Assembly (NCBI GenBank): GCA_025350305.1
Contig: JANXYC010000046.1
Location: 1-64,000, forward strand
Source: Cyclobacteriaceae bacterium
GTDB taxonomy: Bacteria > Bacteroidota > Bacteroidia > Cytophagales > Cyclobacteriaceae
Direction of reading: 5' to 3'
DNA: 64,000 nt
Shown here: one piece after another, positions 14,036 to 30,834 of the stretch
How positions within the stretch are numbered: position 1 is the stretch's first letter
How the letters are laid out: every line of letters begins with the position of its first letter
Position numbers and translations under genes: made by a program
Notes under the pieces: model-generated
Database searches by the model: none
The model's input: the letters and a program-made list of their open reading frames with translations, nothing else
What the model was told of the DNA's origin: nothing

Positions 14036-14067
14036 TTTGTTTTTATTTAAACATTGAACTTTAAACT

Positions 14068-14832: not shown

Positions 14833-14865
14833 TTTTAATTCATTTTATGTTACACATTACAGGCT

Positions 14866-15639
14866 TCAGGAAAGCTTCAATAAACCCGAGTAGGCTTCGT
14901 CTTTTACTGCTTTCATCGTCTCCGCATCATCGATGATATTTTCTAAATCTTTCACTGCTTCTTTCTCTTTCATTCTGACCATCAGTTGTATCAATGCTAT
15001 CTGAACGACGGGGTCTTTTTGCTGAGCAAGTGACTGGATCAGTATTTTCCGGACCGTGCGGTCCTGGTGGAACTTGCTCAAGGCTTCAAGCGCAGCCAGG
15101 CGGACATTGGTGTTGGGATCATCATTCATCGCCTTCGCCAGCGCCCGCACAACCTCATCATCTGCTTTCTCAATTCTCATGGCCACGTTTACTCCTTGAA
15201 TCCGCTGACTGGCCGACTGCTGGTTGTCCATCATCATTAGCATCCCTTGTTTGGTCTCTTCAACCTGTTTTCTCAGCTCCGCTATTTCAGCTTTCCGTTG
15301 GTTATTGGAGTTGATCCAATTGCCGATCGCAATGCCAGCCATTACCAATACTATACCGGCAGCTATGCGAAGCATAAGGGGTTGAAAAAGCACTGTCTTT
15401 GCCGCCTTATTCTTGATAATTTCCTCTCGTAACAGATTGTCAAAGGAGGCCTTTAGCCTGGCGCCTGGTTCAAACTTTTCCGATTTTTCCATAGCGTTCA
15501 TGACTTCGCGCAATTGTTCGTGTACGCGGTATGCCTTTTCATTTTGCGACAGCTCCCGCTCGATGAGTATACGATCCGCCTCGTTCAGCTTGCCATCGAT
15601 GTAGTCAATCAGCATTTCTTCTAGTTTTTCTTTGTCCAT
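14866..15639 (-). CDS. Anti-sigma-factor-like membrane protein with HEAT repeats
   Basis: 257 residues. Residues 1-75 look like the cytoplasmic helical anti-sigma domain (LEEMLIDYIDGKL...), but lack the HxxxCxxC zinc motif. One membrane segment follows (about 90-108), then a Gln-rich coiled coil (about 110-140) and HEAT-like repeats to the end (DEVVRALAKAM, NVRLAALEALSKF, PVVQIALIQLM). The position directly after an ECF sigma gene makes it the likely antagonist. The extracytoplasmic HEAT portion could sense a partner. Confidence 0.78.
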   Translation of the reverse strand: MDKEKLEEMLIDYIDGKLNEADRILIERELSQNEKAYRVHEQLREVMNAMEKSEKFEPGARLKASFDNLLREEIIKNKAAKTVLFQPLMLRIAAGIVLVMAGIAIGNWINSNNQRKAEIAELRKQVEETKQGMLMMMDNQQSASQRIQGVNVAMRIEKADDEVVRALAKAMNDDPNTNVRLAALEALSKFHQDRTVRKILIQSLAQQKDPVVQIALIQLMVRMKEKEAVKDLENIIDDAETMKAVKDEAYSGLLKLS

Positions 15640-15644
15640 AGTCT

Positions 15645-15682
15645 CACCCTTTGTCCCTCTCCGGGGGAGAGGGAAGTTTGGG
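15645..15682. repeat. Short GC hairpin between sigma and anti-sigma genes
   Basis: CCCTCTCC / GGAGAGGG hairpin around 15655-15673 with a T-run on the plus-strand side only. Transcription of the operon runs on the minus strand, so this is unlikely to terminate it; it resembles the CTCCGGAG-type intergenic repeat also seen near 37835. Confidence 0.45.
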
Positions 15683-15687
15683 TTTTT

Positions 15688-16248
15688 TTAAATCTTTTCT
15701 AATTCAAAATAATGTTCCCTCAATTTTGCAATGGCGCGGTGTACTTTTACTTTAATGTTTGCTACGGTTGTTTCCATAATGACGGCAACTTCTTCGTACT
15801 TCATTTGCTGAAAACGCGTCAGCACCAATAATTCACGTTGTTCTTCGCTGAGCAGGGCCATTGAGCGATGCAGAATTTTTTCGCGTTCTTCTTGTTGAGT
15901 TCCTTCTTCGTGGTCGATCATGTGGTCACTCATTTTCTCTACTGCTATGAAATCCGACTTTTTATTCTTGTTAGCCTGATAATGATCCGAAAAAACATTC
16001 CGGGCAACTTGATAGATCCATGACTGAAACCGGTTGCCTTCCCGGTAGCTGTTCCGGTACTTGATCATGCGGAGAAAGACATTCTGCGTCAGGTCTTCGG
16101 CCAGATCCCGATCCATGGTCATACGGGCCAGGAAATTGAAGATCCGTTTATGAAATCGCTCAAACAGCACAGCGGCTTGTTGAAGATCACCGCTTTTCAC
16201 GGCCTCCATAATCTGCTCGTCCGTTGTCAAGTCGCTGATTTTTGTCAA
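15688..16248 (-). CDS. ECF-type RNA polymerase sigma factor
   Basis: 186 residues with sigma region 2 (FNFLARMTMDRDLAEDLTQNVFLRM, rather typical DLTQ-VF core; SWIYQVARNVFSDHY) and region 4 (LSEEQRELLVLTRFQQMKYEEVA, then TVANIKVKVHRAIAKLRE). It heads the cluster sigma - anti-sigma - three DUF4097 proteins, and so probably drives expression of these exported proteins in response to an envelope signal. This layout recurs in Bacteroidota. Confidence 0.9.
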   Translation of the reverse strand: MTKISDLTTDEQIMEAVKSGDLQQAAVLFERFHKRIFNFLARMTMDRDLAEDLTQNVFLRMIKYRNSYREGNRFQSWIYQVARNVFSDHYQANKNKKSDFIAVEKMSDHMIDHEEGTQQEEREKILHRSMALLSEEQRELLVLTRFQQMKYEEVAVIMETTVANIKVKVHRAIAKLREHYFELEKI

Positions 16249-16493
16249 AATTCGTGTTAGTTACCGGGTGGGTGGGTAAAGGTTACAAAAGGAATATTAA
16301 ATCGCTTGCTGCCCCACTTGAAAGACAGCTGGAATCTCTTAGTAGTTGGAATTCATGGAAATTGAAAACGAAAATGAAAAGCGCTTTTTTAAAAATTAAA
16401 AGGTCACCATTCAGAGGATGGGCAAAAGATTCGACACTATTTAAATTTTACGAAGACGGGTATGCCAGGAGATGTTTTAATGGGTGGGGAATG
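16249..16493. other. Intergenic region upstream of the ECF sigma gene
   Basis: 245 bases between the sigma start and the end of the chimeric ORF. It must hold the minus-strand promoter of the sigma operon, but I could not identify a convincing element. A plus-strand frame across it (16242-16607) has no protein-like features. Confidence 0.3.
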
Positions 16494-19196
16494 CTACCTG
16501 GCCTTCCGCCTTTGCTCCGCCTCCAACTCTTTCAAAGTCCAATATGTATTTCTGTCTTTGGTTTTCTCACGAATGCCTCTGACCCGTCCATCCCAAATGC
16601 TTTCTGAATTGTTCAGGTGTGTTCGTATATAACTAAGTACGTCAGCGATGTATTGATCATTCTCATTAGCCACTGCGGCCATGGGTCCGTTGTATTCCAC
16701 GCCATCAACAGGACCTGAGAGTCCATTGAGTAAAATCTTCACAGGTACTTCATAGTCACCTGTCACTCTGGGAGATCCTACAAGGGTGGGTGCCAACTGG
16801 CGAATACCTTTCCCATCCGCCCCGTGACACGTGGAGCAATAATCGTTAAAAATTTTATAGCCATTGATCATCTGAGTGGCTCCTCCTCTTAGCCTATATT
16901 TTTCTCTTAATTCCTGAATGACAGAAAAGGAGGGGTAGAGATTCTCTGCGGCGGTTATTTTTATGACTTCATTATTTGGATGCGAATCCAGTATTGATTT
17001 TACGGTGGATTTGGACGCATCGTTATTTATGCGCAAGGAAAGAATGAGTTGCTGCAATACTTCAATTTCCGGATCATGGGCCAGGCTTTTCAACTCTTCA
17101 AAAATCTCCCGATCATTTTTCTTTAAGTAATGCTCGCAAATACGAATGGCTCCAACCCTTACGCGAGGGTCTTTATCTTTCAATGCAGTTTTCAATAAAG
17201 GCTTTTCAATCGCGTCAAGGCCTTCTAAGGTCCACAGCGCGTGCAATCGTTCGAGGCCAAAATCTTTACTTGAAGGAAGCATTCTGCTAAACCAATTCTC
17301 ATTTCCTTCTACTATTTCCACAAGGTCACGAACAACGGATTTGTCCTTCTTCAAGATGATCAGTTTTTGAGCGGTATTCCGCCACCATCCGTTGGGATGC
17401 CCCAGATACTGCAGAAGTTCAGCAGAATTTTTATTCAATAATTCAGGTTTTGGACCTGGCACCATGTCTTCATGAATAATCTTGTAAATTCTACCCCTTC
17501 CTACGAACTTATCATACCCTTTTTCTTTAACAACGCCACGCAAATAACTTCCTTCACGCACCCAATTCCCTTCCTGGATTATACCCCGATACATATCTAC
17601 GATATACAAACATCCATCAGGTCCGGTGGCAGCATAAACCGGTCTGAATAGGGGATCCTTCATTATGTCTCTATCAATTCCCTCAGTTGGTTTTGACAGA
17701 AGGGAACATATATTATCAATGGACTTTTCAACAAAAGAAATTACTTTATCTCCGTCTTCATACTTTCCTCTGAAATGAGACGAGTCCTTTTGCCATTCCG
17801 TGTGCGCAGGATTCTCAGCATCGCCTAATAGCGTGACTAAAGCCTCATCCTCGATTACAACTAATGCTCTGACAAATTTATTCTTTGGTTTTTTGACACC
17901 TGTGATGGTTATTCCGTTTCGAACGAAATGTGAATCAGCTTCATTTAATTGTTCGTCTTTTTCCAGAAAAAGCTTGAACCAGCAAATTTGTGGTTCAGAA
18001 TTGATTTTTTGAAGTTTTACCGGTATTAGAAATGAAACTTTTTTTCCTTCATCAAAGTCATTGGATTTCATTTTAAGGATTTCGTCCACTTCTTTAGTTA
18101 CAAACCAATCGCGTCTCCACATTATTGAGTTGGTTAGGGGTGGTGGATTCAGTCGAATCATCTCGCTTTCACTTTGGTTGATTGACCAAGCACACAAATC
18201 AAAAAGTTTGGAAAGCTGCTCCGGGCTTACCTCATACTCAGAAGGAAATTCAATTTCTTTGAGTAACGTAAAAATTGTCTTGTCTGTAATTTGAATGTCA
18301 ATGGCATTGTCCTGATCTACAACTTCTACTGTAAGTTTTTTATTAATTATTGGATGAAAGTATTGCCTAAGCACGCTCCTAATTATGCTTTTCGAACTTA
18401 TCTCCTCCTGGGGAAATGGAATTACAACTGATAATCCTGAACTCGCGTCCTCTACTCTTTTTAAGTTAAAAAGTCTCTCGAAATCATCAATGATTGCTTT
18501 ATCATTGGTCGGTGTCACAAAAAACTTATCGGTATTTTCATAATTTCCAAAATATCCATAAGGATATCTTTTTGTGTTAGGCTCATCTGCAAGATGGTGG
18601 GTCTTCAATACGGATAACCCCATCAGATATTTCTCCTGGTCATCGTAGCGCTTTGTCAATGCGAAGAATGTATTGATGCTGGAGGATGCGGGGAAAACTG
18701 TCTTACCAAGCCCCCACTTTCCTCTTTCAGAACCTCGTTTCCCCGACCTCCCAACATTTCGCCAAAACCAATAGAAATTGTGTCCCAGGGGTGAATCTTT
18801 TTGAGGATCATCGTTTTCAGTGACACTACCATCCAATCCAGTTGTATTGAAATCTTCAATTACCAAGTATTCAGTTTTGTCATCGGCCTTGGGAAGCTCT
18901 TCATTGCGTAATCCGTTATCAGCCGAGAGCATGTGCGGAAAAATACCTTTGAATAATGAATGGTTATCAAGGTTGACGTTGTTTGAATTAGACTTTCCTG
19001 AAAAATAATATCGGACTCTCAGGATAAAATTCTCATCATCCGTGTTTGCTAGCGTCGCGTCTAAAGAGTTCTGGATACTCTCTCGAACCAATGAATCCCC
19101 TCCAACATCATTCGTCGTAAAGAACTCACCTTCGATGGGGTTTTGATTGACTTCACTTTCCTGCGGAATCCTGAATTTCCATTGGGGCTGAACCAT
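16494..19196 (-). CDS. Chimeric ORF: GHKL ATPase N-terminus fused to HEAT-cytochrome c tail
   Basis: Two unrelated protein parts in one 900-residue frame. Residues 1 to about 513 are an HSP90-like GHKL ATPase: N-box DSLVRESIQNSLDA (about 34-47), G1-like LVIEDFNTTGL, and G2 RGKWGLGKTVF; this is the ATPase type seen with Z1-domain, PD-(D/E)XK and AIPR proteins in restriction-like defence islands (from memory). From KDPLFRPVYAATGPDG onward (515-900) the sequence is the C-terminus of a PQQ-like beta-propeller dehydrogenase: YIVDMYRGIIQEG, HEAT repeats, and cytochrome c with CSTCH (about 787-791). The ATPase lacks its own C-terminus; the cytochrome lacks its propeller and signal peptide, so heme attachment in the periplasm is impossible as encoded. 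Start ATG 19194-19196 sits 4 bases after the upstream small gene. Possibly a deletion fusion, possibly a library chimera. Confidence 0.75.
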   Translation of the reverse strand: MVQPQWKFRIPQESEVNQNPIEGEFFTTNDVGGDSLVRESIQNSLDATLANTDDENFILRVRYYFSGKSNSNNVNLDNHSLFKGIFPHMLSADNGLRNEELPKADDKTEYLVIEDFNTTGLDGSVTENDDPQKDSPLGHNFYWFWRNVGRSGKRGSERGKWGLGKTVFPASSSINTFFALTKRYDDQEKYLMGLSVLKTHHLADEPNTKRYPYGYFGNYENTDKFFVTPTNDKAIIDDFERLFNLKRVEDASSGLSVVIPFPQEEISSKSIIRSVLRQYFHPIINKKLTVEVVDQDNAIDIQITDKTIFTLLKEIEFPSEYEVSPEQLSKLFDLCAWSINQSESEMIRLNPPPLTNSIMWRRDWFVTKEVDEILKMKSNDFDEGKKVSFLIPVKLQKINSEPQICWFKLFLEKDEQLNEADSHFVRNGITITGVKKPKNKFVRALVVIEDEALVTLLGDAENPAHTEWQKDSSHFRGKYEDGDKVISFVEKSIDNICSLLSKPTEGIDRDIMKDPLFRPVYAATGPDGCLYIVDMYRGIIQEGNWVREGSYLRGVVKEKGYDKFVGRGRIYKIIHEDMVPGPKPELLNKNSAELLQYLGHPNGWWRNTAQKLIILKKDKSVVRDLVEIVEGNENWFSRMLPSSKDFGLERLHALWTLEGLDAIEKPLLKTALKDKDPRVRVGAIRICEHYLKKNDREIFEELKSLAHDPEIEVLQQLILSLRINNDASKSTVKSILDSHPNNEVIKITAAENLYPSFSVIQELREKYRLRGGATQMINGYKIFNDYCSTCHGADGKGIRQLAPTLVGSPRVTGDYEVPVKILLNGLSGPVDGVEYNGPMAAVANENDQYIADVLSYIRTHLNNSESIWDGRVRGIREKTKDRNTYWTLKELEAEQRRKAR

Positions 19197-19200
19197 ACAT

Positions 19201-19434
19201 TTAGAATTTGAATTTGTTTCTCTCCGACCGGTTAATTGCACTTCCGAATGCCGATTCAGTGCTTTTCATTTTATCCTTTATTGCCGAGAACATTTTCCGG
19301 ACATCTTCATCAGTGTATTCGTAGTTAGTCCTGTTAGAACAATTCCCCAGGATATCGAGTGCATCAAGGATCTTCTGCGTTCTTCTTGCCGCTACGTTCT
19401 CGAACCGCTCCCTCCGTGTTGATTTCTTATTCAT
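19201..19434 (-). CDS. Small helical partner protein of the GHKL ATPase
   Basis: 77 residues, charged and helical (RRERFENVAARRTQKILDAL, then LGNCSNRTNYEY and a DEDVRKMFSAI helix). I recall similar 70-90-residue proteins directly upstream of Z1-system GHKL ATPases; the 4-base spacing to the ATPase start suggests translational coupling. Function is unknown. The following system components (Z1, nuclease, AIPR) are absent here because the ATPase is interrupted. Confidence 0.65.
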   Translation of the reverse strand: MNKKSTRRERFENVAARRTQKILDALDILGNCSNRTNYEYTDEDVRKMFSAIKDKMKSTESAFGSAINRSERNKFKF

Positions 19435-19888
19435 TTATTATAACATTATATACCGCATCAAAATTGAACAATAAATACCCATATAACAAGCTTATTGCTA
19501 CAATGCGAATTATATTATATAATATGTAATGTAATTTGGCTTTTCTAGAAGGTTTTCGGGAATCTACTATCAAGATCATGCAAAGTGGGCCCTATTGGAA
19601 GTGTGGGAATCGGGAGCAAGTGGTTCCCAGAGCAAAATGAACATACCTCCTCATTCTTCACCGATAAGCCGCCCATTAGCCTGTTGCGGAAGGTTTGTCA
19701 AGGGTGGCGATTCCGCTAAAAGTCAAAAATAAGATCGACACGTGCAGTGTCCGCCGAAGCCTTAGCGTAGGCGGGCCTCGCCCTTGACCAGCCTGGAGCA
19801 ACGGCTAACTTATGCGTGCGGTGATGAATGGCCGCTTCTAGTTACCTCTTCCATTCCATTTTCAGTGTCTGCCTAACTTGGCCCCTTA
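19435..19888. other. Intergenic gap with one short palindrome
   Basis: 454 bases without a recognisable gene. It contains one member of the CCGCC...AGC...GGCGG palindrome family (about 19749-19775) and an imperfect inverted pair around it (GTCAAGGGTGGCGA near 19697 and TCGCCCTTGAC near 19786). The first 100 bases are strongly AT-rich and could carry the promoter of the small gene/ATPase pair. Confidence 0.4.
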
Positions 19889-20671
19889 TCACAAATCCAC
19901 CTGCTTCAAATACTTTTCAAACAACTCTACCTTCTTTGCGTCGGCAGCATTGAACAGGAAAGGCGCAACATCGTCGGCCATTGCCTTCATATCCAGTTTT
20001 GAACAAACACTCAGTATTTTGGCCTTCAGGCCTTTTGAGTGTCCAATGCCTAGTTTCATCCGGAGGTAATCGTAATTGGGTTTAATGTCTTTGGATAACA
20101 AAAAGATTACGTCGAAGAAGTCTCTCCCCTTCGATCTTTTCCTGTTGACAATCGTGTAGAACTTCTGAGCAAGGAGCAGGTTAAGAGGCGTTACCGGTAT
20201 CTCTGTGAATACATCAAACTTGTTGAGAATGTGCTTTTCGGGTTGAAAGTCAAAATGCTGAGGCTCGGTATCAAGCTGGATCAGAATCTTTTGTTCCTGG
20301 TGCCCGGCAAGCCCCTCCTTAAACAACAGCCCGGGGAAACGAACGTAACAATGAAACGCTCCCTTAAAGACTGTTTTCATTTCAATTTCATACCCTTCCC
20401 GTTCCAGCTCTTTTTTGATCTGTTCTGAGATAGACTGAAAGTTTTTTTCGGTGAGTCCGAAATTATCGAAATCAATATCTTCTGAGAACCGGTTATTGCC
20501 ATGTACTATTCGCAGGCAAGTACCCCCAAGAAAGCATAATTGACTGGCGTATTCTGGCTGAGCAAATACTATCTGAAGGATCTTGTATTGCAAATATTCG
20601 CGCAAGATGAATGCGCGGAAGGTCCGTTGATTTTCTAGATAAAGCGGAAGGAGTTCGTCAACGCTCAGCAT
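19889..20671 (-). CDS. AbiEii-family nucleotidyltransferase toxin
   Basis: Toxin half of a type IV (AbiE-like) toxin-antitoxin/abortive-infection pair. The 260-residue protein (ATG 20669-20671) has the MNT-like signature GGTCLRIVHG followed by SEDIDFD, and the distal KGRDFFDV motif of AbiEii proteins. The start lies inside the end of the upstream antitoxin frame (14-base overlap), the usual AbiE coupling. The longer frame start at 20743 would overlap the partner by 86 bases and is not favoured. Confidence 0.85.
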   Translation of the reverse strand: MLSVDELLPLYLENQRTFRAFILREYLQYKILQIVFAQPEYASQLCFLGGTCLRIVHGNNRFSEDIDFDNFGLTEKNFQSISEQIKKELEREGYEIEMKTVFKGAFHCYVRFPGLLFKEGLAGHQEQKILIQLDTEPQHFDFQPEKHILNKFDVFTEIPVTPLNLLLAQKFYTIVNRKRSKGRDFFDVIFLLSKDIKPNYDYLRMKLGIGHSKGLKAKILSVCSKLDMKAMADDVAPFLFNAADAKKVELFEKYLKQVDL

Positions 20672-21281
20672 ATCGAAAAGTGTTTCTGAAAGTATTGACC
20701 CTTTTTTCGAGGGCCTTATTTTCGAACAAGGCGAGATATTCAATTAGCCTGGACTCATTAAGCAACGACCGGAGTTCTGCTTGATTTATCCGGAGCGATT
20801 CAAAATCATTAGCGGATTGAAGTTCCGTATTGAGATACATGTAATCCAGAAGCAGCTTCTCCGGTTCTGCCATCTTAAAACGCTGCCCTGCTGCTTCAAC
20901 CAATCGGTAGCCAAACATCAGATCAGGCCTTAGATGTCGGTAAGTGAAGGCTCCCAGGGAGGTCGTGAACTGATGGGTCTTCAGGGTTGTTGCCGACGTG
21001 ACAGTATAAACCCCTTCGGGGATGAGGCGGTAATAAGCCAGGGCAGATTCAAAGGAAACATAAGAGGGTGAGTAAATCCGGTTAGCTGCGAGATAAAGAA
21101 AGTTTTCATCCAACAGGGTATCAGCAAACAGGTACCATCGGTTGACGATTCTCTTTATGTAATTCTTCTTTTGCCACTCCACAAGTCGTCGGGTGTCAAA
21201 GGCAGGATCCCACTTCAGGATGTCCTGAACGGAAAAGACCCTGAATGCTGCGAAATGGCCCTTAAAATCGAGTATCCTCAC
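20658..21281 (-). CDS. AbiEi-type antitoxin (winged-helix regulator)
   Basis: 207 residues. N-terminal winged-helix region with FSVQDILKW, RRLVEWQKKNYIKRI and WYLFADTLLDENFLYLAANRIY, then the AbiEi-like SPSYVSFESALAYYRLIPEGVYTVTSAT block. AbiEi proteins repress their own promoter and neutralise AbiEii, whose gene overlaps the 3' end. The family normally counters phage by abortive infection or stabilises a locus. Confidence 0.82.
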   Translation of the reverse strand: MRILDFKGHFAAFRVFSVQDILKWDPAFDTRRLVEWQKKNYIKRIVNRWYLFADTLLDENFLYLAANRIYSPSYVSFESALAYYRLIPEGVYTVTSATTLKTHQFTTSLGAFTYRHLRPDLMFGYRLVEAAGQRFKMAEPEKLLLDYMYLNTELQSANDFESLRINQAELRSLLNESRLIEYLALFENKALEKRVNTFRNTFRYAER

Positions 21282-21377
21282 TAGTGTTTCTATTTACTGT
21301 TAAAAATAACAAATTATGGAAACAAAAATAATAGTCAAGGGGTTTATTTTCTTTAAAAAAGGTTGACCTAACTAAAA

Positions 21378-21545
21378 ATGGAAATAAGGAGTTATCGGTA
21401 CCTGCTGATGCTTGTGAAGGGTAAGGCTGATAGCGCGCTTGCCAGGATCATTTGTAAACTCGGAATTAGTAAAACAGGGTTATGCAATGGTCATGACTGT
21501 TTAAGTTCTAATTCAATCGAATCATTATTTTTGTTGGTAGAATAA
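21378..21545 (+). CDS. Possible 55-residue small ORF before tRNA-Pro
   Basis: An ATG-initiated frame ([18 protein letters not shown]...) ends three bases before the tRNA. The C-terminal half contains two cysteines. There is no evident ribosome-binding site and I recognise no family, so it may be fortuitous. It is reported only because it fills the otherwise empty 266 bases between the AbiE promoter region and the tRNA. Confidence 0.15.
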
Positions 21546-21547
21546 TT

Positions 21548-21621
21548 CGGGGCGTAGCGCAGCCCGGTAGCGCGCCACGTTCGGGACGTGGAAGTCGTAG
21601 GTTCGAATCCTGCCGCCCCGA
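21548..21621 (+). tRNA. tRNA-Pro (CGG)
   Basis: Cloverleaf folds fully: acceptor CGGGGCG (21548-21554) with CGCCCCG (21614-21620), D-stem GCGC/GCGC, anticodon stem CCACG/CGTGG around the loop TTCGGGA (anticodon CGG), T-arm GTAGG-TTCGAAT-CCTGC with one G-U, and discriminator A at 21621. CCA is not encoded. A structured repeat begins directly at the 3' end. Confidence 0.93.
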
Positions 21622-21745
21622 CTTCGCTCGCCATAGCTCCGCTTCGGAGCGAAGGCGAGCTTCGCTTTTGAAGGTTCTGCTTCGAAGCTAATTTTGTATG
21701 GCGAGCTACGTCGGGCAACGCCCGACACTGCTCCGAAAGAAATCT
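21622..21745. repeat. Composite palindromic element, copy A (tRNA-Pro 3' side)
   Basis: Nested stems: outer CTCGCCATA (21627-21635) with TATGGCGAG (21697-21705); inner CTCCG/CGGAG within AGCTCCGCTTCGGAGCG; and a second hairpin GTCGGG-CAA-CGCCCGAC (21710-21726), followed by ACTGCTCCGAAAGA. Copy B at 22123 has the same layout with compensatory changes. It begins immediately after the tRNA discriminator base. Confidence 0.8.
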
Positions 21746-21815
21746 TCCAAAATAGTCAGGAAAACCGAATGCCTTAACCCGCAACTCTATTGATCTAGAC
21801 TTCGTCTCCATCTTC

Positions 21816-22052
21816 ATGTGGTTTGTGTATCTTCTAAAATGCGCTAATTGTTCCATTTATGTGGGATGTACTTCAGATCTTGATGAAAGGATAAAAAGGC
21901 ACAATGCTGGAGATGTGCTCTCTACAAGCGCCAGACTACCCGTGTTACTTATTACATACATCGCTTTTACTGACAAATACAAAGCTTTTGAATTTGAGAA
22001 ATACCTAAAAGGAGGTTCCGGAAGAGCATTTCTAAACAGACACCTTGTTTGA
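21816..22052 (+). CDS. Small GIY-YIG (URI-type) nuclease-family protein
   Basis: 78-residue single-domain GIY-YIG protein: MWFVYLLKC, SIYVGCTSDLDERIKRHN (the GIY/YIG pair here FVY...YVG with the conserved Arg), and the C-terminal YKAFEFEKYLKGGSGRAFL. The family is related to the UvrC N-terminal nuclease and Slx1, and many stand-alone copies are found in Bacteroidota. The gene lies between two copies of a palindromic element next to a tRNA, which suggests it belongs to a mobile unit rather than to housekeeping repair. Activity unproven. Confidence 0.8.
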   Translation: MWFVYLLKCANCSIYVGCTSDLDERIKRHNAGDVLSTSARLPVLLITYIAFTDKYKAFEFEKYLKGGSGRAFLNRHLV

Positions 22053-22084
22053 CTTTAAGCCGCTATGCTTGCCAGCCGTTTCAA

Positions 22085-22275
22085 ATCGTCTAAAAAAAAG
22101 TTCGAGAATTGTACAGGGAGGGGGGACTTCGCTCGCCGTAGTCCCGCCTCGGGACGAAGGCGAGCTTCGCTCGTACTGACTCAGTTTCAAACACGAGTCT
22201 CTACGGCGAGCTTCGTCGGGCAATGCCCGACACTGCTTCGAAAGATGATTTTTCAATAAGTTCGAGAATGGTACA
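22085..22275. repeat. Composite palindromic element, copy B (GIY-YIG 3' side)
   Basis: Outer stem CTCGCCGTA (22132-22140) with TACGGCGAG (22202-22210), inner stem TCCCG/CGGGA, and hairpin GTCGGG-CAA-TGCCCGAC (22215-22231). Flanked on both sides by AAGTTCGAGAAT words (about 22087-22099 and 22258-22269). Relative to copy A the outer A-T pair becomes G-C, and the inner stem changes on both sides. Confidence 0.8.
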
Positions 22276-22362
22276 GACAAAACGACTTTGCTCGCCATAG
22301 CAGCCAAATTTATGACCTCACTTACAGCATCATCCTGGTAACCTCTTAATTTTGCCTGTCTA

Positions 22363-22398
22363 GAAACGTTGTTTCGTTTATTTCGTTTAGTATATTTG
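22363..22398 (+). promoter_or_regulatory. Promoter with overlapping palindrome for the HTH antitoxin gene
   Basis: A -33 TTG at 22369-22371 and a -7 TATATTTG at 22391-22398 are separated by 19 bases, matching the Bacteroidota consensus in both sequence and spacing; the ATG follows 16 bases later. A perfect palindrome GAAAC-GTT-GTTTC (22363-22375) covers the -33 element, a likely site for autorepression by the encoded HTH protein (inference). Confidence 0.65.
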
Positions 22399-22414
22399 AG
22401 GAAATTACGAATAT

Positions 22415-22873
22415 ATGGAAACGGTAATTAAAAGGACATCCCGAAAAGACCAAAAAATTGCGACAAAGTCCGTCTTTGACCTTACAAGGACGGCCGCTTC
22501 AATTTCAAGGAAAAAGCCGGATGTAGTGAAAATCAAAATCCAGGAAAGCGGAGAGTTTGTGAGTGTTCCTCGAAAAGCGCTGGACTTATTGTTCAACATC
22601 CTCTCGAATATGGCCGAGGGAAAGTCGATTTCGCTCGTCCCATCAGATTCAGAAGTAAGCACTCAGCAAGCTGCTGATATGCTCAATGTCTCCAGACCTC
22701 ATATTGTAAAGCTGCTGGAGCAAGGAGTAATTCCACATAAAAAAGCAGGCAGTCATAGGAGAATATTGCTGGAGGATTTATTGAAATATGATGAAAAATT
22801 AAACGAGCAAAGGAATAGTAGTTTGAAATTCATAGCTAAACAAGCACAGGAATTGGGATTAGGATATAAATGA
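22415..22873 (+). CDS. Excisionase-type HTH antitoxin, orphan
   Basis: 152 residues. C-terminal half contains an excisionase/MerR-like helix-turn-helix: STQQAADMLNVSRPHIVKLLEQ, then IPHKKAGSHRRILLEDLL. N-terminal half (VPRKALDLLFNILSNMAEG) is typical of antitoxins paired with PIN-domain toxins. A toxin would be expected to start in the overlapping ATG at 22870, but that frame stops after 14 codons, so the partner is missing. Confidence 0.75.
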   Translation: METVIKRTSRKDQKIATKSVFDLTRTAASISRKKPDVVKIKIQESGEFVSVPRKALDLLFNILSNMAEGKSISLVPSDSEVSTQQAADMLNVSRPHIVKLLEQGVIPHKKAGSHRRILLEDLLKYDEKLNEQRNSSLKFIAKQAQELGLGYK

Positions 22874-22924
22874 TCCTTGGCGGTGGGCACATTCCTTGCA
22901 ACATAGCTTTGTAGCGGATTCCAA

Positions 22925-23629
22925 CTAATTGCTAATGACAGAACTCCCAGGTTTCTTTGAATTGCTCTTCTTCCACAATTCGACATTTAGCCGGTGGAGT
23001 ATTTCAAACGCCATGCATCCTTCTTCAAGCACTTTGTGCATAGAAAATTGATTCAGTGGCCATCTGATTTGCAAAACTCCCAGATCGAAATCACCCTTAA
23101 ATTCAGCTAGTGCGATAAAATAATTGCGTAAGAAATCCGGAAGCTCTCCTTTGATTTTTCTCTTAAGCAACGGATGGTAGGCTTTGGTTACTGATTCATC
23201 GAATAGCTCAGTTTCCGAGTAACCAAAAATCCCAAGCTTGGAATAGGCCGCAATTTCCTGAATAAAAAGATCAAACATTTTATGAACGCACTCAGGATGG
23301 GAAATGGATGACTCCAGGAAAATGCTGTCCTTATCAACTCCCAAATAATAGTGATGATCTATCCGTTCGCAAGAAATGCCTGTTCGAAGTCCCATTCCAT
23401 AGTCAAGGGTTTGTTGAAGTTTCCACGTTCCCCTAAACCCACCAAAGCCGCTGAAAATCACCAACAACCGATAAAGCAAAGTTTCAATATCCATCGGCTT
23501 TATTCTTGCATCTTCCCAGTAGGGATTGTAAGGGATAATAAATCTTTCCTGGTGGAATCTGATGTTCTCGGCCCAACCATCCAGTTCCTTACCGTGTCTG
23601 TAGAAAATGATTTGCAGCCGATCCTCCAT
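22925..23629 (-). CDS. Hypothetical protein
   Basis: 234 residues from ATG 23627-23629; I do not recognise a family. It is rich in aromatics, mixed alpha/beta, without signal peptide or membrane segment. Notable pieces are IIFYRHGKELDGWAENIRF near the N-terminus and a C-terminal helix LEEGCMAFEILHRLNVELW. The start is preferred because the longer frame would overlap the upstream PIN gene. It lies directly downstream of a VapBC-like pair on the same strand (26-base gap) and may be cargo of that locus. Confidence 0.55.
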   Translation of the reverse strand: MEDRLQIIFYRHGKELDGWAENIRFHQERFIIPYNPYWEDARIKPMDIETLLYRLLVIFSGFGGFRGTWKLQQTLDYGMGLRTGISCERIDHHYYLGVDKDSIFLESSISHPECVHKMFDLFIQEIAAYSKLGIFGYSETELFDESVTKAYHPLLKRKIKGELPDFLRNYFIALAEFKGDFDLGVLQIRWPLNQFSMHKVLEEGCMAFEILHRLNVELWKKSNSKKPGSSVISN

Positions 23630-23655
23630 TGAACAATTGTATTGGCAAACCCAAT

Positions 23656-24042
23656 CTACCAAAGTAATTTCAAATTGTTATACTTATCGAAAATGCTGTC
23701 TTTCGTTATTAATACAAGTTTTTCGATGAGTGCCTGAGCGATGATGATTCTATCGAACGGATCCCGATGGTGAAAATCAAGCGTTGTTAATTCAATGGTA
23801 TGCTCAAAGGTTATAGGGAGGATCTCAAATCCGTTTACTGAAACGTGTTGCTGCAAGTCCTGGTAAGCCATATCCAGTTTGATTTTGCCCAAGCTTAATT
23901 TTATCGCTATTTCCCAAAAGGAAACGATGCTAACATATTTTGTGGCATCAGGATCTTGTATAGCAATTTTAGCTTTCTCTGAAAGTTGCTCATCCCCATT
24001 AATAAACCAAAGAAAAGAATGAGTATCGAGCAAGTGCTCCAT
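23656..24042 (-). CDS. PIN-domain toxin (VapC-like)
   Basis: 128-residue ribonuclease-type toxin. Acidic active-site candidates are D6 (LLDTHSFLW), E in SIVSFWEIAIK, and D in FHHRDPFDRIIIAQA. This is the LLDTHxxLW class common in Bacteroidota. Its start overlaps the antitoxin stop by one base (TAATG-type junction at 24042), giving translational coupling. Confidence 0.88.
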   Translation of the reverse strand: MEHLLDTHSFLWFINGDEQLSEKAKIAIQDPDATKYVSIVSFWEIAIKLSLGKIKLDMAYQDLQQHVSVNGFEILPITFEHTIELTTLDFHHRDPFDRIIIAQALIEKLVLITKDSIFDKYNNLKLLW

Positions 24043-24239
24043 TACATATAATCTTTAAGATCATCAAGAGGCTTATCGAAATCCGCTGATATTTTGATCT
24101 TTCCCTTGGCACTGCCAAATTGAGGGATGGCTTTCTTTTTCCTTTTGCCAGACTTTTCCAATAGGAAATCGATAAAATCCAAGACCTCCTGTTTTAAATT
24201 CTTTGGTAAGGTTTCAAGTTTCGTATTTAAACTGCTCAT
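24042..24239 (-). CDS. DUF2281-type antitoxin (VapB-like)
   Basis: 65 residues from ATG 24237-24239. The N-terminal LETLPKNLKQEVLDFIDFLLEK is the DUF2281 helix; the middle is basic and the tail ISADFDKPLDDLKDYM is acidic, as expected for a segment that binds the cognate PIN toxin. First gene of the pair. Confidence 0.82.
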   Translation of the reverse strand: MSSLNTKLETLPKNLKQEVLDFIDFLLEKSGKRKKKAIPQFGSAKGKIKISADFDKPLDDLKDYM

Positions 24240-24324
24240 GGCTAAACGCATTTAATGGCTCTAAGGTACGATTAAAACATTTTTTGTCAAAACAAGATGG
24301 CTGTCTCAGCAATTTTCCTTCACC

Positions 24325-24465
24325 TTACTTTTCGCGGTCCGCGTCCAGGTATTTTGCATAATCGATCAATCGTTGTAGTCCATCGCTCTGAATTTCCGGG
24401 CGATCTCTTTCTTGTTCATAATCTATCCTGTCTTTGATGGCCGTCCATTTAAAATCGTTTCCACT
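24325..24465 (-). pseudogene. Antitoxin-like remnant
   Basis: Open for 46 codons with no start, ending at a TAA (24325-24327). The end of the frame reads DGLQRLIDYAKYLDADREK, closely matching YGLQRLIDYVKYLETTSK in the antitoxin gene at 30455-30661. The rest of the antitoxin is missing. A second remnant on the opposite strand starts where this one ends. Confidence 0.55.
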
Positions 24466-24466
24466 T

Positions 24467-24607
24467 CAGCACAGGGATTTAAAGCGTAATGGAACAGAAT
24501 TCGGGGAAACTGATGAAACTTTTGCCTTCCTTGCCGGATATACATCCAGCGGCGCTCCGTATGGCTTGACTCACAAAGAATGGGAAGTCAATCCGGACGG
24601 TAGTTAG
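24467..24607 (+). pseudogene. C-terminal fragment of an unidentified gene
   Basis: A frame without start, reading RDLKRNGTEFGETDETFAF, then AGYTSSGAPYGLTHKEWE and a stop at 24605-24607. The composition is clearly protein-like and resembles C-termini of small hypothetical proteins that I have seen in Bacteroidota beside TA genes. No 5' part exists here. Confidence 0.4.
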
Positions 24608-24663
24608 TTAGAGATTGATACCGGCACCCAGTGAGAGCCAGGGCTTAGTCGCTTAGAGTCATA

Positions 24664-26313
24664 CTATATATCCGAAATCATTGACATCAGCTTACTTCTG
24701 CGCTTATATTGCAGTCGAATGTCTGTCTTCAGTTTGTCGGCCAGATTCACATCGATTTTCTTTAATTGCTGCAATGCATCTGTGATGGCGTGATAGTAAT
24801 GATCTCCTGTATGCTGCAGGTTTTCATCGATCGTTTTTGAAAAATATTTCACCGCTTCCGCCGGAAAGTGTTTTTTGTTTTTCTTATAAAACCCAAAGAC
24901 CCGGTCTCCCCAGATATTTTTGTTTCGTTTTATAAGATCAAGGGCGTCCTGGAGCCTTCCGGAATCTTCTAAATAATCAAGCAATCCCTCAGCATTCTTT
25001 TTCTCCAGCTGCGTCTCATAAACTGCAATTTCTAACGGCAGCAGGCTGGCTATTTTTTCCAGCATGGCCCGCGTGGGAGACCGCATTATGGACTCCCTGG
25101 CTGTTTCGCGCAGGTCCAAATCTTCTGCTTTCAGGAGATCAAGGTAAAGGAAATATACTTTCTCATCCTCGATCAATTTATCCTTATTTTTAGCCAGCCA
25201 TTTCTCAAGCACGGCTATACTTTCTTTTCGCCTCCCTTCGTGGATCAGCAGTTCCGCCAGTTCGCACAACCATAAACTGTTACCATCTTTTAAAACCGAT
25301 AAAATTTTCTTCCTTTCATCAGGCGATAATAGCCCCGCGACAAGCTGGTAATATGTTTCAGTCAGCCCGTAAGAAAGAACTTCATAATCGCTTGTCAGCA
25401 AGGCTTTAAGGTGAGGAAGGTCTTCGTTATCAAAAACATTTCCTATCGTTTTATAGACACCAGAAAAAGTAGAATAAGAGGACTGGCCAACCGCTTCATC
25501 CAGTTCTTCCAGGAATTCTGTTTTTTGCCTGAAACTTAACGCTCGCGCATAATTTGTGACAAATGAATAAAATGTTTCCGGCGGTTCAAAGTTATAATCA
25601 TTGTAATCGTCATATAGATAGCCCTCATCAAAAGCATGGTCCACCTTTTCAATGATGTGAATGATCAATTCACCTAGCTCGTTGGGCAGTGATTTCTCCA
25701 ATCCAGATAGTTTTTTTACCTGTTGCATCAGCACATCTTCAAATACGCGGGGATCGTATAGGGACTCCCTATCTTCAAATGCTTTCTTTATGTTGTGTTG
25801 AGCTTTCCTTAGTAGGGTCAGCGCTTCAGAATTGCTTGAATAGCGATTGCTGATCAAAGTAAAAAATTCTTCCGGTGCATAGTTGATCACCAGGTCTATT
25901 AATTTTTCCCTGGATAAAGAGTCCAGGTAACTTTTGATATTTGTATCGGAATTGCCGGGCACCGCAGTATCAATCTTAATTTCTTCATTGACGGCATATA
26001 ATAAAACAGCCACAACATGCTTGCATACTTCCCCATCATAAGGACAGGTGCAGGAAGCATATACCTTCCTCTCTTTTAGTCGTATTTGTACCGCATAGGT
26101 TTTGTTTCCACGCACTTTCCCATTGAGCAAAGTTTTAGCCTCTGTGAGCACAACGCTGGTTGCCAGGTTATTTTCATAATATTCCTTTCCTCGGTAGTAT
26201 ATTGTTGAAGTACAGGAATCCTGGATTTCGTCTTCGGTCAGTAATCCAATAAATTTTTCCAGGTTTTTTTCAGTAGTGGTAAAGAGCGTTTCGGCGTTCA
26301 TCAATTTACTCAT
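24664..26313 (-). CDS. SWIM zinc-finger protein
   Basis: 549 residues. The N-terminal third contains a SWIM zinc finger, CTC-PYDGEVC-KH (about 101-112, pattern CxCxnCxH), followed by VVAVLLYAV. The remainder is helical with TPR/HEAT-like segments and no enzyme motif. Stand-alone SWIM proteins of this type often accompany SNF2 helicases, which is not the case here. Cytoplasmic. Role unknown; DNA or protein binding is inferred from the finger only. Confidence 0.75.
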   Translation of the reverse strand: MSKLMNAETLFTTTEKNLEKFIGLLTEDEIQDSCTSTIYYRGKEYYENNLATSVVLTEAKTLLNGKVRGNKTYAVQIRLKERKVYASCTCPYDGEVCKHVVAVLLYAVNEEIKIDTAVPGNSDTNIKSYLDSLSREKLIDLVINYAPEEFFTLISNRYSSNSEALTLLRKAQHNIKKAFEDRESLYDPRVFEDVLMQQVKKLSGLEKSLPNELGELIIHIIEKVDHAFDEGYLYDDYNDYNFEPPETFYSFVTNYARALSFRQKTEFLEELDEAVGQSSYSTFSGVYKTIGNVFDNEDLPHLKALLTSDYEVLSYGLTETYYQLVAGLLSPDERKKILSVLKDGNSLWLCELAELLIHEGRRKESIAVLEKWLAKNKDKLIEDEKVYFLYLDLLKAEDLDLRETARESIMRSPTRAMLEKIASLLPLEIAVYETQLEKKNAEGLLDYLEDSGRLQDALDLIKRNKNIWGDRVFGFYKKNKKHFPAEAVKYFSKTIDENLQHTGDHYYHAITDALQQLKKIDVNLADKLKTDIRLQYKRRSKLMSMISDI

Positions 26314-26330
26314 ATTTAACTCTCAAATAG

Positions 26331-26338
26331 CAAAGCTA
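26331..26338 (-). promoter_or_regulatory. Candidate -7 element for the SWIM gene
   Basis: TAGCTTTG on the minus strand matches TAnnTTTG, 18 bases before the ATG at 26311-26313. No TTG at the right spacing was found. Confidence 0.3.
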
Positions 26339-26471
26339 TGACCGTGCTAAACTAAACAGTTTTGCTAAATCCTGCCAGGTAATTGAGTACAATCTGATTT
26401 CGTGGAAGGTATAAAGCACAAAAAAACCAGTAACGTTAACACTCAAAATTGAATTTAAGGATAATCTATGG

Positions 26472-26580
26472 CTGCTTCGAAAGATGATTTTTCAATAAGT
26501 TCGAGAATTGTTAAGGGAGGGGGACTTCGCTCGCCATAGCTCCGCTTCGGAGGGAGGCCGAGTTTTGCTCGCCGTAGGAA
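26472..26580. repeat. Truncated copy C of the palindromic element with 37-bp exact repeat
   Basis: Bases 26472-26508 are identical to 22233-22269. They are followed by GGACTTCGCTCGCCATAGCTCCGCTTCGGAG (split here into known blocks of copy A), after which the element diverges. The gap 26339-26654 holds nothing else that I recognise. Confidence 0.75.
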
Positions 26581-26654
26581 ATCTTTTCTCTTCCAGGTCT
26601 TTTATTTGAGCTAGGCTTCCATTACGACAGTTTCCCATGTAGAAACATTGATTT

Positions 26655-27110
26655 GTGATTGACAAAATGCTTCCTTATTTCTCCCTGGACCGATTTAAAA
26701 AGGCCTATGAGTATTACGGCCGGGATCTCTGCGATCTGACAGAACCCGGAGTTAGCGATTATCTGTTTACATTCTTTCAGGACAAAGGAATGCCAGCTCT
26801 GGCTACCACTATTAAGGAAGGAGGCAAATTCCGGATTTTGTCTGACGTTGTAAGAGATTTGAAAAGAGCGCTCAATCAACCTCTCTACGATGAACTGATT
26901 GAAAATTCTTTTTATTATGCGCCTCCCTATTTGCCACTATTTGGATTCATGATGCAATCCCGGAAATGGCCTATTCTAAGCTTTTCCGTAATGGAATGGA
27001 CGCACGATCAAACAAAAGAGAAATTTGTTGATTATGTGCGAAAGAATTATACAGACTATGATTCCGGTGAAGCAGTGAAGCAGGTGGATAAATGGTCTAA
27101 CTATTTCTAA
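26655..27110 (+). CDS. Hypothetical protein
   Basis: 151 residues, unknown family. Acidic, mostly helical, with many aromatic residues (LPYFSLDRFKKAYEYYGRD; SFYYAPPYLPLFGFMM; PILSFSVMEWTHDQ). No signal peptide or membrane segment. It could start four codons later at a second Met. It is convergent with the TPR gene and not in an obvious operon. Confidence 0.5.
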   Translation: MIDKMLPYFSLDRFKKAYEYYGRDLCDLTEPGVSDYLFTFFQDKGMPALATTIKEGGKFRILSDVVRDLKRALNQPLYDELIENSFYYAPPYLPLFGFMMQSRKWPILSFSVMEWTHDQTKEKFVDYVRKNYTDYDSGEAVKQVDKWSNYF

Positions 27111-27137
27111 CAAAGGCAAAGTACTAGCATTCCTTAT

Positions 27138-28706
27138 CTATTTGTCAATATTCTGATATTTACCGTACAGACCCATTGCCTCTGTTTTGAGTTGTTGCAG
27201 TTCCATTGAGTCTGATGTTTTAAGCTTTTCAACCAGACTAGCGTATTGCATGATTTTCTCTTTGCAATTGTTGGACACCAACTCTCGAAAGTAGGTCAAG
27301 ATCGCCAGTTTTTCCATGTAATCGTTTTTGGATTCCTGAGCGGCTGTTATTGCCTGTTCATAGTACCTTTGTCCAGTCTCCACTTCGCCTGATCTGAAAG
27401 CAGCAAGGCCAAAAGTAGCTTGGATTGGTATAGCGTCGTCAGTTGCAAGGGTACTGAACTTTATTTTAAACATTGCATTCAAGTATGGCTCCGCTTTATC
27501 TAATTCATTCATCATTAACAAAGAGTAAGCAATGTTGTTTAGCAGAATTGGATCATTAGGTTTTGCTTTTAGTCCGGCCTCACAAAGCATAGTAGCAGCC
27601 TTATAGTCCTTCAAAAACATGCTGGCGACATACGAACCCAATAAGACTGGTCTTTTCGAGTAGGGTATGTCCAAAAACCAAAAAACGCAGTTATTTATCA
27701 CCTCAATCCAATTACCCGCTTTGTAGGCATCAAAAGCAAAAGCTTCGAAAGGGTTTGAGACGTTTTTAAATGAAGGTGCATCTATCGCAAATGCCTTTTC
27801 CTTATACCCAAGCCACTCCATTTGCGCAAGACTGTTGTCATTGGGCGAGATTATTGATTGCTGCAAAAATTTCTTAGCTTTTTTCATTGACCCTTCTTGG
27901 TACTCCAGAGTACCCAATGAACTTGTTAGCTCAGTCAATTCATAGTCGGAGTAGTTCCTCGAATTCGCCAAGATAATCCCGCTTTTTATTAACGGAGAGT
28001 ACCGGTTCATCATTGAAGACGTAGCAATATGCGCTGAAATCAACCAAGGATCGGATTTAGTTGCGTCGCTCTTTCTAAGATAGTATAGCGCCTTTTCATG
28101 TTTTTCAAAATGAATGAACAGGCGGGTCGCGGATCGTAGCACATATCTATTGTCGGGCGCAAGTTCTAGCGCGACTATCATTGCCTTTTCAGCCTTATCC
28201 TCCTGTCCGAAAAACGCGTAAAGTCTTGACAAATCAACCCAAACAATCGGATTTCTAAGTTCAATTCTTGTCAAATTTCTTGTTCGACTAAGAATTCTGT
28301 AAATCGTTTGATTTTCAAAATGGGTTTGAAATTGCTCTAATGAATCAACCTCTAATTCCTTTAGGTTGAAAGAACCCAAGTTACCACTGCCAATATTATA
28401 GTCATTAATGCTTCTTGCTATGTCCAATAGCACATTCGACGATTTATCGGAATGATTAATAATATATTGAGTGGCCTCTTTTATTTCTTTAAAATCGTAC
28501 TCTTCCGCCAGAAAAGAGCCATTAACCAATTCAGCAGCCGTGCCGATTGAATTGTTCTCGTTCCAATCATTGATAATAGTAGTTAAGTCGATTTTGACAA
28601 CGGGTACAACACCGCTAACTGATAATTCTTTTAATTTGACCGTACGCCGAAAGTCCCTCCAGTTCGGAATTACCCTTCTCTCTTCTATTTTGTAATTAAC
28701 TGCCAT
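27138..28706 (-). CDS. TPR-repeat protein linked to a protein kinase
   Basis: 522 residues. The N-terminal ~120 residues form a domain I do not recognise (RVIPNWRDFRRTVKL; SIGTAAELVNGSF). From about 150 onward come TPR-like repeats, e.g. VWVDLSRLYAFFGQEDKAEKAM, ALYYLRKS, NPFEAFAFDAYKAGNW, LLNNIAYSLLMMNELDKAEPYL, ATFGLAAFRSGEVETGQRYYEQA. It lies 65 bases downstream of a kinase gene on the same strand, and the pair looks like a two-component unit (kinase plus TPR target or scaffold). The region is noticeably AT-rich compared with the biosynthetic genes. Confidence 0.7.
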   Translation of the reverse strand: MAVNYKIEERRVIPNWRDFRRTVKLKELSVSGVVPVVKIDLTTIINDWNENNSIGTAAELVNGSFLAEEYDFKEIKEATQYIINHSDKSSNVLLDIARSINDYNIGSGNLGSFNLKELEVDSLEQFQTHFENQTIYRILSRTRNLTRIELRNPIVWVDLSRLYAFFGQEDKAEKAMIVALELAPDNRYVLRSATRLFIHFEKHEKALYYLRKSDATKSDPWLISAHIATSSMMNRYSPLIKSGIILANSRNYSDYELTELTSSLGTLEYQEGSMKKAKKFLQQSIISPNDNSLAQMEWLGYKEKAFAIDAPSFKNVSNPFEAFAFDAYKAGNWIEVINNCVFWFLDIPYSKRPVLLGSYVASMFLKDYKAATMLCEAGLKAKPNDPILLNNIAYSLLMMNELDKAEPYLNAMFKIKFSTLATDDAIPIQATFGLAAFRSGEVETGQRYYEQAITAAQESKNDYMEKLAILTYFRELVSNNCKEKIMQYASLVEKLKTSDSMELQQLKTEAMGLYGKYQNIDK

Positions 28707-28771
28707 GATTAATCAATTCCAGTTCAATTTTTCTTGACAGAATATCAAGCTTCGAAACCACACGTCGGAAT

Positions 28772-29838
28772 TCATATTGATTTCCTTTCTGTTGTAGGGA
28801 GGTAGGGTGTCCTCTTTTTTTCAGGATACGGAAAGCAGGTGTATTCAAGTATTATTGAAAGTTCATCAGCAAGATATTCATGGGGAATGGATTTTTTGAA
28901 TTCCTTAATCGCCTTGTAATATCCCTGAATTAAATAATCTTTGACAGCCGCGAAACTTCCATTCCAATTACTCCATCGAAATTGACGGTCAATATTTCTG
29001 AATATCATATTCGTAGTATTCACGCCGGTAAAATAAAAGCAAATAAGACTTCCGAAAAGGTACATATCAGTGGCTCTAATTCTTTTGACAAGATCTGGCT
29101 CTATATGTCTGTATAAGAATTCTATTGGAACGTAATCACTATCTCCTGTAAACCTGCCAGAGGCACTTTCATGGGGTGCTTTTATTTCAGAACAAAGCGA
29201 ACTTCCTAAGTCTCCAATTTTAGACACAAGGCCATTTTCATAAAGTAAGACATTGGATGGCTTAAGGTCCTGATGACCGATTCCAATACTATGCAATTGA
29301 TCTAGCCCTACAGCAACATCATGTAAGGATTTCAATTTCCAAGCAATGTCCAATTTATTGCTAAAATCAATTTTTGATCTTATGTCTCCTTCCGCCATTT
29401 CAAAAACTAAGAATGGAACTGAGGCGATTGCATACTCATCGAGATAGGCAGTACCCGTGTCATACAATGTTATGACTTTAGATAACTTCTTTCCTTTACA
29501 TCTCAATAAGACGGCTCGTTCATATTCGAATGCAGAGTTTTGCTCGCTGATAATGCTTACGGGATCTTTATCCTTACTCCGCGAGAAAAAGCTTTATAAT
29601 TTAAGGCTTTAAGAAATGCTTTATTGTGCGTTGTAACATCTTCTACCAGATATCTAATACTAAACTTTCCGCCTGTGCCATCCGAGGTAGGGTCAATTCT
29701 TTTCAAAACCTTCCACCTATCATTTAAAAGTTTCCCCTCCAGATTACTGGCAGCGTTGTTTTCATCTTTTGAATTTTCCATTGAATTCTGTATCGTTAAT
29801 ATTTCAGAATGTCCCCGATCTAACAAAACGCTCGACAT
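28772..29838 (-). pseudogene. Ser/Thr protein kinase, frameshifted
   Basis: Two adjacent frames (29557-29838 and 28772-29506) together give one kinase of about 350 residues. The first supplies the N-lobe with AFLKAL (candidate ATP-binding Lys). The second supplies PFLVFEMAEGD (hinge), HQDLKPSNVLL (HRD loop with Q for R) and KIGDLGSSL (DLG in place of DFG). Adding one base to the five-A run at 29586-29590 joins the frames as KAFFSRSKDKDPVSIIS, so a single-base indel separates them. It could be a sequencing error, a true null, or slippage. The start may be the internal Met at 29781. Confidence 0.7.
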
Positions 29839-29847
29839 TTACAGTTA

Positions 29848-29970
29848 TTAACCGCTTGCCGGATTTATGCCAGCAAGGAGTTCATTTAATCCCTCACTTT
29901 CCGGGTTTAATCCCTCACTTAATCCGTCACCTATGGGGATTACGACTTCAAAAGTGACCCCTTCGAAAAC
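29848..29970 (-). pseudogene. C-terminal remnant of an AlbA/AAA_4-type transcriptional regulator
   Basis: Frame without start codon: EGVTFEVVIPI, then a degenerate GLSEGLN / EGLN repeat and a stop at 29848-29850. The VTFEVVIP plus repeated GLxEGLN pattern is typical of the linker in Schlafen/AAA_4-domain regulators, where a wHTH follows; that part is missing. At the DNA level there are three TTAATCC(C/G)TCAC words. Confidence 0.5.
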
Positions 29971-29990
29971 TCAAGTACGTTATTCTCAAT

Positions 29991-30458
29991 TTACTTTCTT
30001 CGTCGCTTACGCTCATGCTTAATCACCTCCCGAAGATTATGAAGCTTGTCTGTGGTCAACATATTTGTAAAGCCCTTCTTCTCAAGCCCGGCAATTAAGG
30101 CTTTATCACCTGACCAAACCTTGCGATTAAACTGTTTTGAGAACGCTATATATTGAACGTCTTTCGGATCAATGTCCTTTACCAATTCGAAGGCTGCATT
30201 CCAATTTGCAGTGGAGACCTGTTCTTCGGAAATGAATTTTATGTCCTTGCAGATTTGAAATTCGGCTTCGATTACTTGTTCCAGACTCAGTTTGGACAAT
30301 TCAACCAGTCTTTTGTGATGTGTGCGGATTTCCGTGCGTAAGAAATCCGGAGCTATGAATTCGATTAATCCAACAGAATTTATAAGGAGGTCGCCGATCT
30401 TACCTTTTGTGTTCAGTATTCCGCTAAAGACGATGTTAGCGTCTACAATGACCTTCAC
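29991..30458 (-). CDS. PIN-domain toxin
   Basis: 155 residues. The start MKVIVDANIVFSGIL places the first catalytic Asp at D6; further acidic candidates are E in LRTEIRTHH, and D in DIDPKDVQYIAFS and WSGDKAL. The highly basic C-terminus (HERKRRRK) may contact RNA. It overlaps the antitoxin gene by four bases (ATGA), confirming a toxin-antitoxin pair. Confidence 0.85.
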   Translation of the reverse strand: MKVIVDANIVFSGILNTKGKIGDLLINSVGLIEFIAPDFLRTEIRTHHKRLVELSKLSLEQVIEAEFQICKDIKFISEEQVSTANWNAAFELVKDIDPKDVQYIAFSKQFNRKVWSGDKALIAGLEKKGFTNMLTTDKLHNLREVIKHERKRRRK

Positions 30459-30661
30459 TTAACAAAGCGTTTCTTGTTTTTAGTCCACCAGGAGGTATTT
30501 ACTTCCTCGGCAAGCTTATCAGCGTCAGATTGTTTTGCCTTGCTCTTCGAAGTGGTCTCCAAGTATTTTACATAGTCTATAAGGCGTTGCAGACCATAGC
30601 TGTCGATAGCGGAAGAAATGGTAATTACTAGCTTGTTCTTGGTAGTCCGTTCTATAACCAT
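30455..30661 (-). CDS. Antitoxin partner of the PIN toxin
   Basis: 68 residues from ATG 30659-30661. The chosen start matches the usual antitoxin N-terminus (MVIERTTKNKLVITI); the longer frame adds 40 unrelated residues. Core sequence YGLQRLIDYVKYLE, then a Lys-rich linker and NTSWWTKNKKRF at the C-terminus. It shares its central block with the remnant at 24325-24465. Confidence 0.78.
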   Translation of the reverse strand: MVIERTTKNKLVITISSAIDSYGLQRLIDYVKYLETTSKSKAKQSDADKLAEEVNTSWWTKNKKRFVK

Positions 30662-30834
30662 GGCGAAGGATATTTTTCCTAAAATTACGGAAAATCTCCC
30701 AATGTCTGTGCCAAAGAAAGGAGTTATAACCCTCTTCCCTCGCGCTTCTTCTTTCTTTTTTTCGTAACCGTAGAGGATCATCGTTAAGGTTCGGTAGGTT
30801 AGCCGGGCATAGCGTCATCAACCGGAGCTAATAA

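Follow-up and report, generated by a model that had tools for sequence, protein, structure and literature searches.

The window analysed here, 64,000 nucleotides of contig JANXYC010000046.1 from a Cyclobacteriaceae bacterium (GCA_025350305.1), contains an open reading frame of 900 codons on the minus strand (19196-16494, ATG at 19196, no internal stops) that starts out as a defence-type GHKL ATPase and finishes as a cytochrome c dehydrogenase. Such a frame might encode a working chimera, it might be an error of assembly, or it might be what recombination has left of two separate genes. On the evidence given below, the frame is very probably a recombination scar, made by insertion or deletion at the border of a defence island that is in decay.

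A change of family within one frame

The features at and around the joint are as follows.

16494..17657, minus strand: 3' half of a DUF7133-HEAT-cytochrome c dehydrogenase gene, about residues 360-744 of the intact orthologue (Pfam, orthologues)
17655..17658, minus strand: joint (GGAT), presumed 4-bp microhomology of both parents (start of DNA homology)
17659..19196, minus strand: truncated GHKL-type ATPase, PDC-M33A-like, residues 1-513/514 (PADLOC, relatives, fold)
19201..19434, minus strand: 77-aa ORF whose end lies 4 bp short of the ATPase start codon (ORF coordinates)

The family switches at K513/D514, and the significance of the change is far above chance, with E values of 1e-25 and 3e-16 for the two halves. 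The joint itself, K513-D514-P515, occupies window positions 17660-17652. DNA homology to the closest relative, the sister species G021, starts at GGATCC, position 17658, which is exactly at the joint, and for the three dehydrogenase relatives the DNA alignment starts at 17658 or 17657 and nowhere to the right of there. On the ATPase side of the joint, 5 of 30 bases agree with the closest relative, which is chance level. The microhomology at the joint is presumed to be about 4 bp; the lost ATPase parent would have read AAG-GAT here, judging from the aspartate aligned at this place in some of its relatives. An in-frame join on the same strand is expected by chance about 1 time in 3 once the strand is given (1 in 6 overall), thus in-frame joining is not in itself surprising.

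A sequence-only reading of this locus had put the change of family at about residue 513, with GHKL motifs before it and the end of a propeller, HEAT repeats and a CSTCH heme site without an export signal after it. Those coordinates were right, with PDC-M33A before the switch and Pfam's DUF7133 from residue 513, and both descriptions agree with the profile matches and alignments reported below. The same reading saw the halves as if joined at a shared Lys-Asp; the joint is at K513-D514, with D514 leading directly into the dehydrogenase. The motif that it gave for the intact ATPases, EGxDRDxxxDIF, was close: in the relatives the conserved helix is followed by DVF, DIF or DYF.

The dehydrogenase half

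Pfam finds DUF7133 at residues 513-577 of the frame, covering only profile positions 325-385 of 385 (the last propeller segment), followed by HEAT_2 at 666-753 and Cytochrom_C at 778-859 (E 9.5e-8), with the CSTCH (CXXCH) heme site kept. An intact orthologue of 744 aa is present in G004, of the same genus, where DUF7133 covers positions 2-385 of 385 and is followed by HEAT repeats and cytochrome c; the dehydrogenase half shares 78% protein identity with it. Another member of the genus, G075, has another intact gene. In G021 the same gene is split across two contigs, with 94% and 89% DNA identity to the half in the window; after its downstream part come sigma-factor and DUF4097-type genes, the same as those in the window (89% DNA identity over 4.7 kb). 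Compared with the DUF7133, or PVC-type heme-binding, dehydrogenases (Piru_Ver_Nterm, TIGR02604) that carry HEAT repeats and a C-terminal cytochrome c, the window gene has a C half orthologous to the intact genes of its genus but lacks the first ~359 residues and has no export route.

The dehydrogenases of G004, G075 and G021 start with what looks, by eye, like a lipoprotein signal. No signal peptide is possible in the 900-codon frame, because its N-terminus is the start of the ATPase, directly downstream of the 77-aa ORF. The first ~359 residues of the dehydrogenase, which comprise the signal and most of the propeller, are absent from the window. No copy of this N half turned up when the whole assembly was searched, while the tail used as query did match the same assembly. 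As a control for this search, the N halves of G021 and G004 match each other at 84%. A DUF7133 match at the end of contig C235 was a candidate for the missing N half but was rejected, since it belongs to a different protein. When the region upstream of the gene in G021 was searched for in the assembly, the sole match was an outer-membrane gene located elsewhere.

In the remaining tail, 386 codons run without a stop. We counted 15 synonymous and 9 nonsynonymous substitutions on this branch vs 16 and 10 on the G021 branch, numbers of changes so small that the comparison has little power.

The ATPase half and its intact relatives

Residues 24-295 match PADLOC's PDC-M33A (E 9.6e-26), with a weaker match in a second stretch. 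The GHKL core motifs RESIQNSLDA, EDFNTTGLDG and GKWGLGKT are present and are conserved in the alignment with relatives. A structure model of residues 1-515 is of low confidence (mean pLDDT 58, pTM 0.67); it matches structures of the Topo VI-B, GyrB, Hsp90 and MutL type, with GHKL folds on top in the PDB, and these matches of a low-confidence model support the GHKL class. A sequence search of the PDB with the ATPase gave nothing convincing. The 77-aa ORF upstream is probably the first gene of the ATPase's transcript; it has no PADLOC match. Our literature search did not find a paper on PDC-M33. Two published names were tried for the ATPase operon and rejected: WonAB, in which WonA is an ABC ATPase, and the Vibrio GHKL system VcSduA, which is a Shedu protein with a nuclease.

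A search of GTDB contigs identified intact relatives of the ATPase in a Calditrichota MAG, a Flavobacteriales MAG and a Methanoregula MAG (L035-L037), and G186 and G161 supply further relatives from the same phylum. The intact proteins are 630-655 aa long, are found in unrelated genomes, and share 37-41% identity with the ATPase half. They extend ~115-140 aa beyond the point at which the window ATPase is truncated: past the last conserved helix, they have a charged linker and then a conserved C-terminal domain ending in GFDENRDL, which was found in all of the relatives examined for it. A gene of ~255 aa, which we call B, directly follows the ATPase in all three loci checked (L032 of G186, L036 and L037), and in L036 and L037, the two loci that extend far enough, a gene of ~240 aa, C, is present too. 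We call B and C partners from their presence in these relatives. The C-terminal domain, B and C were all missing from the window in a search that does find the ATPase itself, and after residue 514 the place of the domain is taken by the dehydrogenase. The window copy thus resembles PDC-M33A, a phage-defence candidate of PADLOC, in its N half, but it is cut before the C-terminal domain, has no partner genes and is joined to unrelated sequence.

In L036 (6304-11345) and L037 (6530-11468), the intact PDC-M33A-like ATPase and the two conserved genes are accompanied by a DNA cytosine methylase upstream of the ATPase. B and C of these loci have no confident Pfam or PADLOC match. The combination of ATPase, methylase and B/C is possibly an uncharacterised defence system.

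A defence island in a hotspot

The joint is also the left edge of a 13-kb island, with the following features.

17659..30834, strand not assigned: genome-specific defence island, left edge at the joint and right edge at the 3' end of a GH20 gene (PADLOC, relatives)
19889-21281: AbiEii and AbiEi
28772..29781, minus strand: PDC-M71A kinase gene with a frameshift near 29580 (N piece, profile positions 4-63; C piece, positions 90-319 in another frame)

The island holds AbiEi/AbiEii, PIN toxins, a SWIM protein, PDC-M71A/B and a tRNA-Pro, the defence genes being PADLOC hits. Compared with 11 relatives, it has no long DNA match, only short scattered ones. G066, a near-complete genome, has the left flank (window 14067-16288) and the right flank (from 30899) in unchanged order and orientation at a distance of 7.7 kb, and the genes between them are other than those of the window's island. 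G021 differs too, immediately past the GH20 gene (L047). The region 16288-30899, from the sigma-factor operon to the GH20 gene, is a hotspot whose gene content is different in each relative examined (see also L046). The frameshift in the PDC-M71A kinase gene, if it is no sequencing error, adds a second site of decay in the island. Its neighbour PDC-M71B is apparently full-length.

The tRNA-Pro(CGG) inside the island, at 21548-21622 on the plus strand, is followed by repeats of 47-121 nt (21620, 22125, 26523), and short pieces related to these repeats occur on other contigs of the genome. A 56-bp element of a relative (L021:942-997) matches many places across the window's genome.

Alternative explanations

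Conceivably, the assembler fused sequence from two unrelated molecules, or from strain variants, at position 17658. The assembly is fragmented (305 contigs, ~92% complete), the contigs of G021 break inside the same gene as well, ~290 bp from the joint, and the dehydrogenase N half could sit in the missing portion of the genome. We nevertheless consider an artefact unlikely, with an overlap at the joint of only ~4 bp, far under any assembler k-mer, and an N half absent from the rest of the assembly. Moreover, the contig does not stop at the island but goes on into the right flank on the chromosome, and the two flanks are neighbours in G066, so that two false joins would be required to put the island in a wrong place. 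No other frame fused to the ATPase half was found in 97 relatives, 396 genomes of the phylum and 391 of the order (overlapping samples), nor in GTDB contigs, plasmids, phages or viral contigs. Among 63 genomes of the genus, the joint DNA is whole only in the window's own, and the fusion is known from one assembled genome.

A working chimera, in which the HEAT/cytochrome segment would serve the GHKL ATPase for interaction or redox sensing, as a new C-terminal part that replaces its lost domain, is very improbable in our judgement. The 900 intact codons, the kept GHKL motifs and CXXCH site, and the lack of detected acceleration on this branch would suit it, but it has to be set against an occurrence in one genome only, a missing export signal for heme attachment, the loss of most of the propeller, an ATPase deprived of its own C-terminal domain and partner genes, and a neighbouring kinase gene (PDC-M71A) that is broken as well. 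If it were expressed and working, it would be a defence protein that has only just arisen, redox- or membrane-linked, with HEAT repeats and cytochrome c in place of the C-terminal domain, a prospect that we regard as more doubtful still. Among known systems, Shedu VcSduA of V. cholerae also has a defence GHKL ATPase and a C-terminal partner domain in one chain; it is a GHKL ATPase fused to a nuclease, with homologues in about 1.2% of the genomes examined (PMC12137116). In VcSduA, however, the partner is a defence nuclease, whereas in the window it is a cut metabolic enzyme, seen once. Finally, the truncated GHKL protein might still defend by itself, with the dehydrogenase tail as passive ballast, and alignment and fold do show the GHKL and middle region to be complete within residues 1-513. 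The structure model behind that fold is of low confidence, however, and the relatives keep the C-terminal domain in every case examined and gene B in all three loci, which makes activity of the truncated operon unlikely; we give this possibility hardly any weight.

A probable recombination scar

The sequence-only reading had left the choice between a rare working chimera and a deletion scar following insertion of a defence island into a dehydrogenase gene. The second option is favoured here: both halves have intact parents, the dehydrogenase within the genus and the ATPase in unrelated genomes, the joint coincides with the boundary of the island, and the full-length architecture, which that reading had said would speak for a true domain fusion if many genomes shared it, was found in none of the other genomes searched.

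The order of events that we infer would begin with an ancestor whose DUF7133-HEAT-cytochrome c dehydrogenase was still whole and secreted and lay, as in G021, beside the sigma-factor/DUF4097 operon. An island with a PDC-M33A-type GHKL ATPase operon may then have settled upstream of the dehydrogenase, in the gene-content hotspot. A single illegitimate recombination at the ~4 bp of microhomology would have deleted the dehydrogenase's first ~359 codons together with the C-terminal domain of the ATPase and its partner genes; or else an island that came already cut may have replaced the lost parts. The remaining pieces would have been joined in frame by chance. Heme is attached to c-type cytochromes outside the cytoplasm. 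The product of the frame, if made, would be cytoplasmic, and its cytochrome part would have no way into the periplasm to receive heme.

Both functions have most likely been lost: we take the halves to be inactive because the frame lacks an export signal and most of the propeller, and its ATPase is without its last domain and its partners. The lack of stops and of excess amino-acid change in the tail, a point against reading the frame as a scar, means that the scar is recent or that the fragment is still constrained.

As a scar the frame is ordinary in kind. It does call for caution in annotation, as an automatic procedure would call this in-frame chimera a 900-aa fusion protein. It is a clean case of turnover in a defence-island hotspot breaking a neighbouring housekeeping gene. 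For the ATPase family, the comparison hints that two conserved, unnamed genes go along with intact PDC-M33A-type ATPases as partners, joined at two loci by a DNA cytosine methylase.
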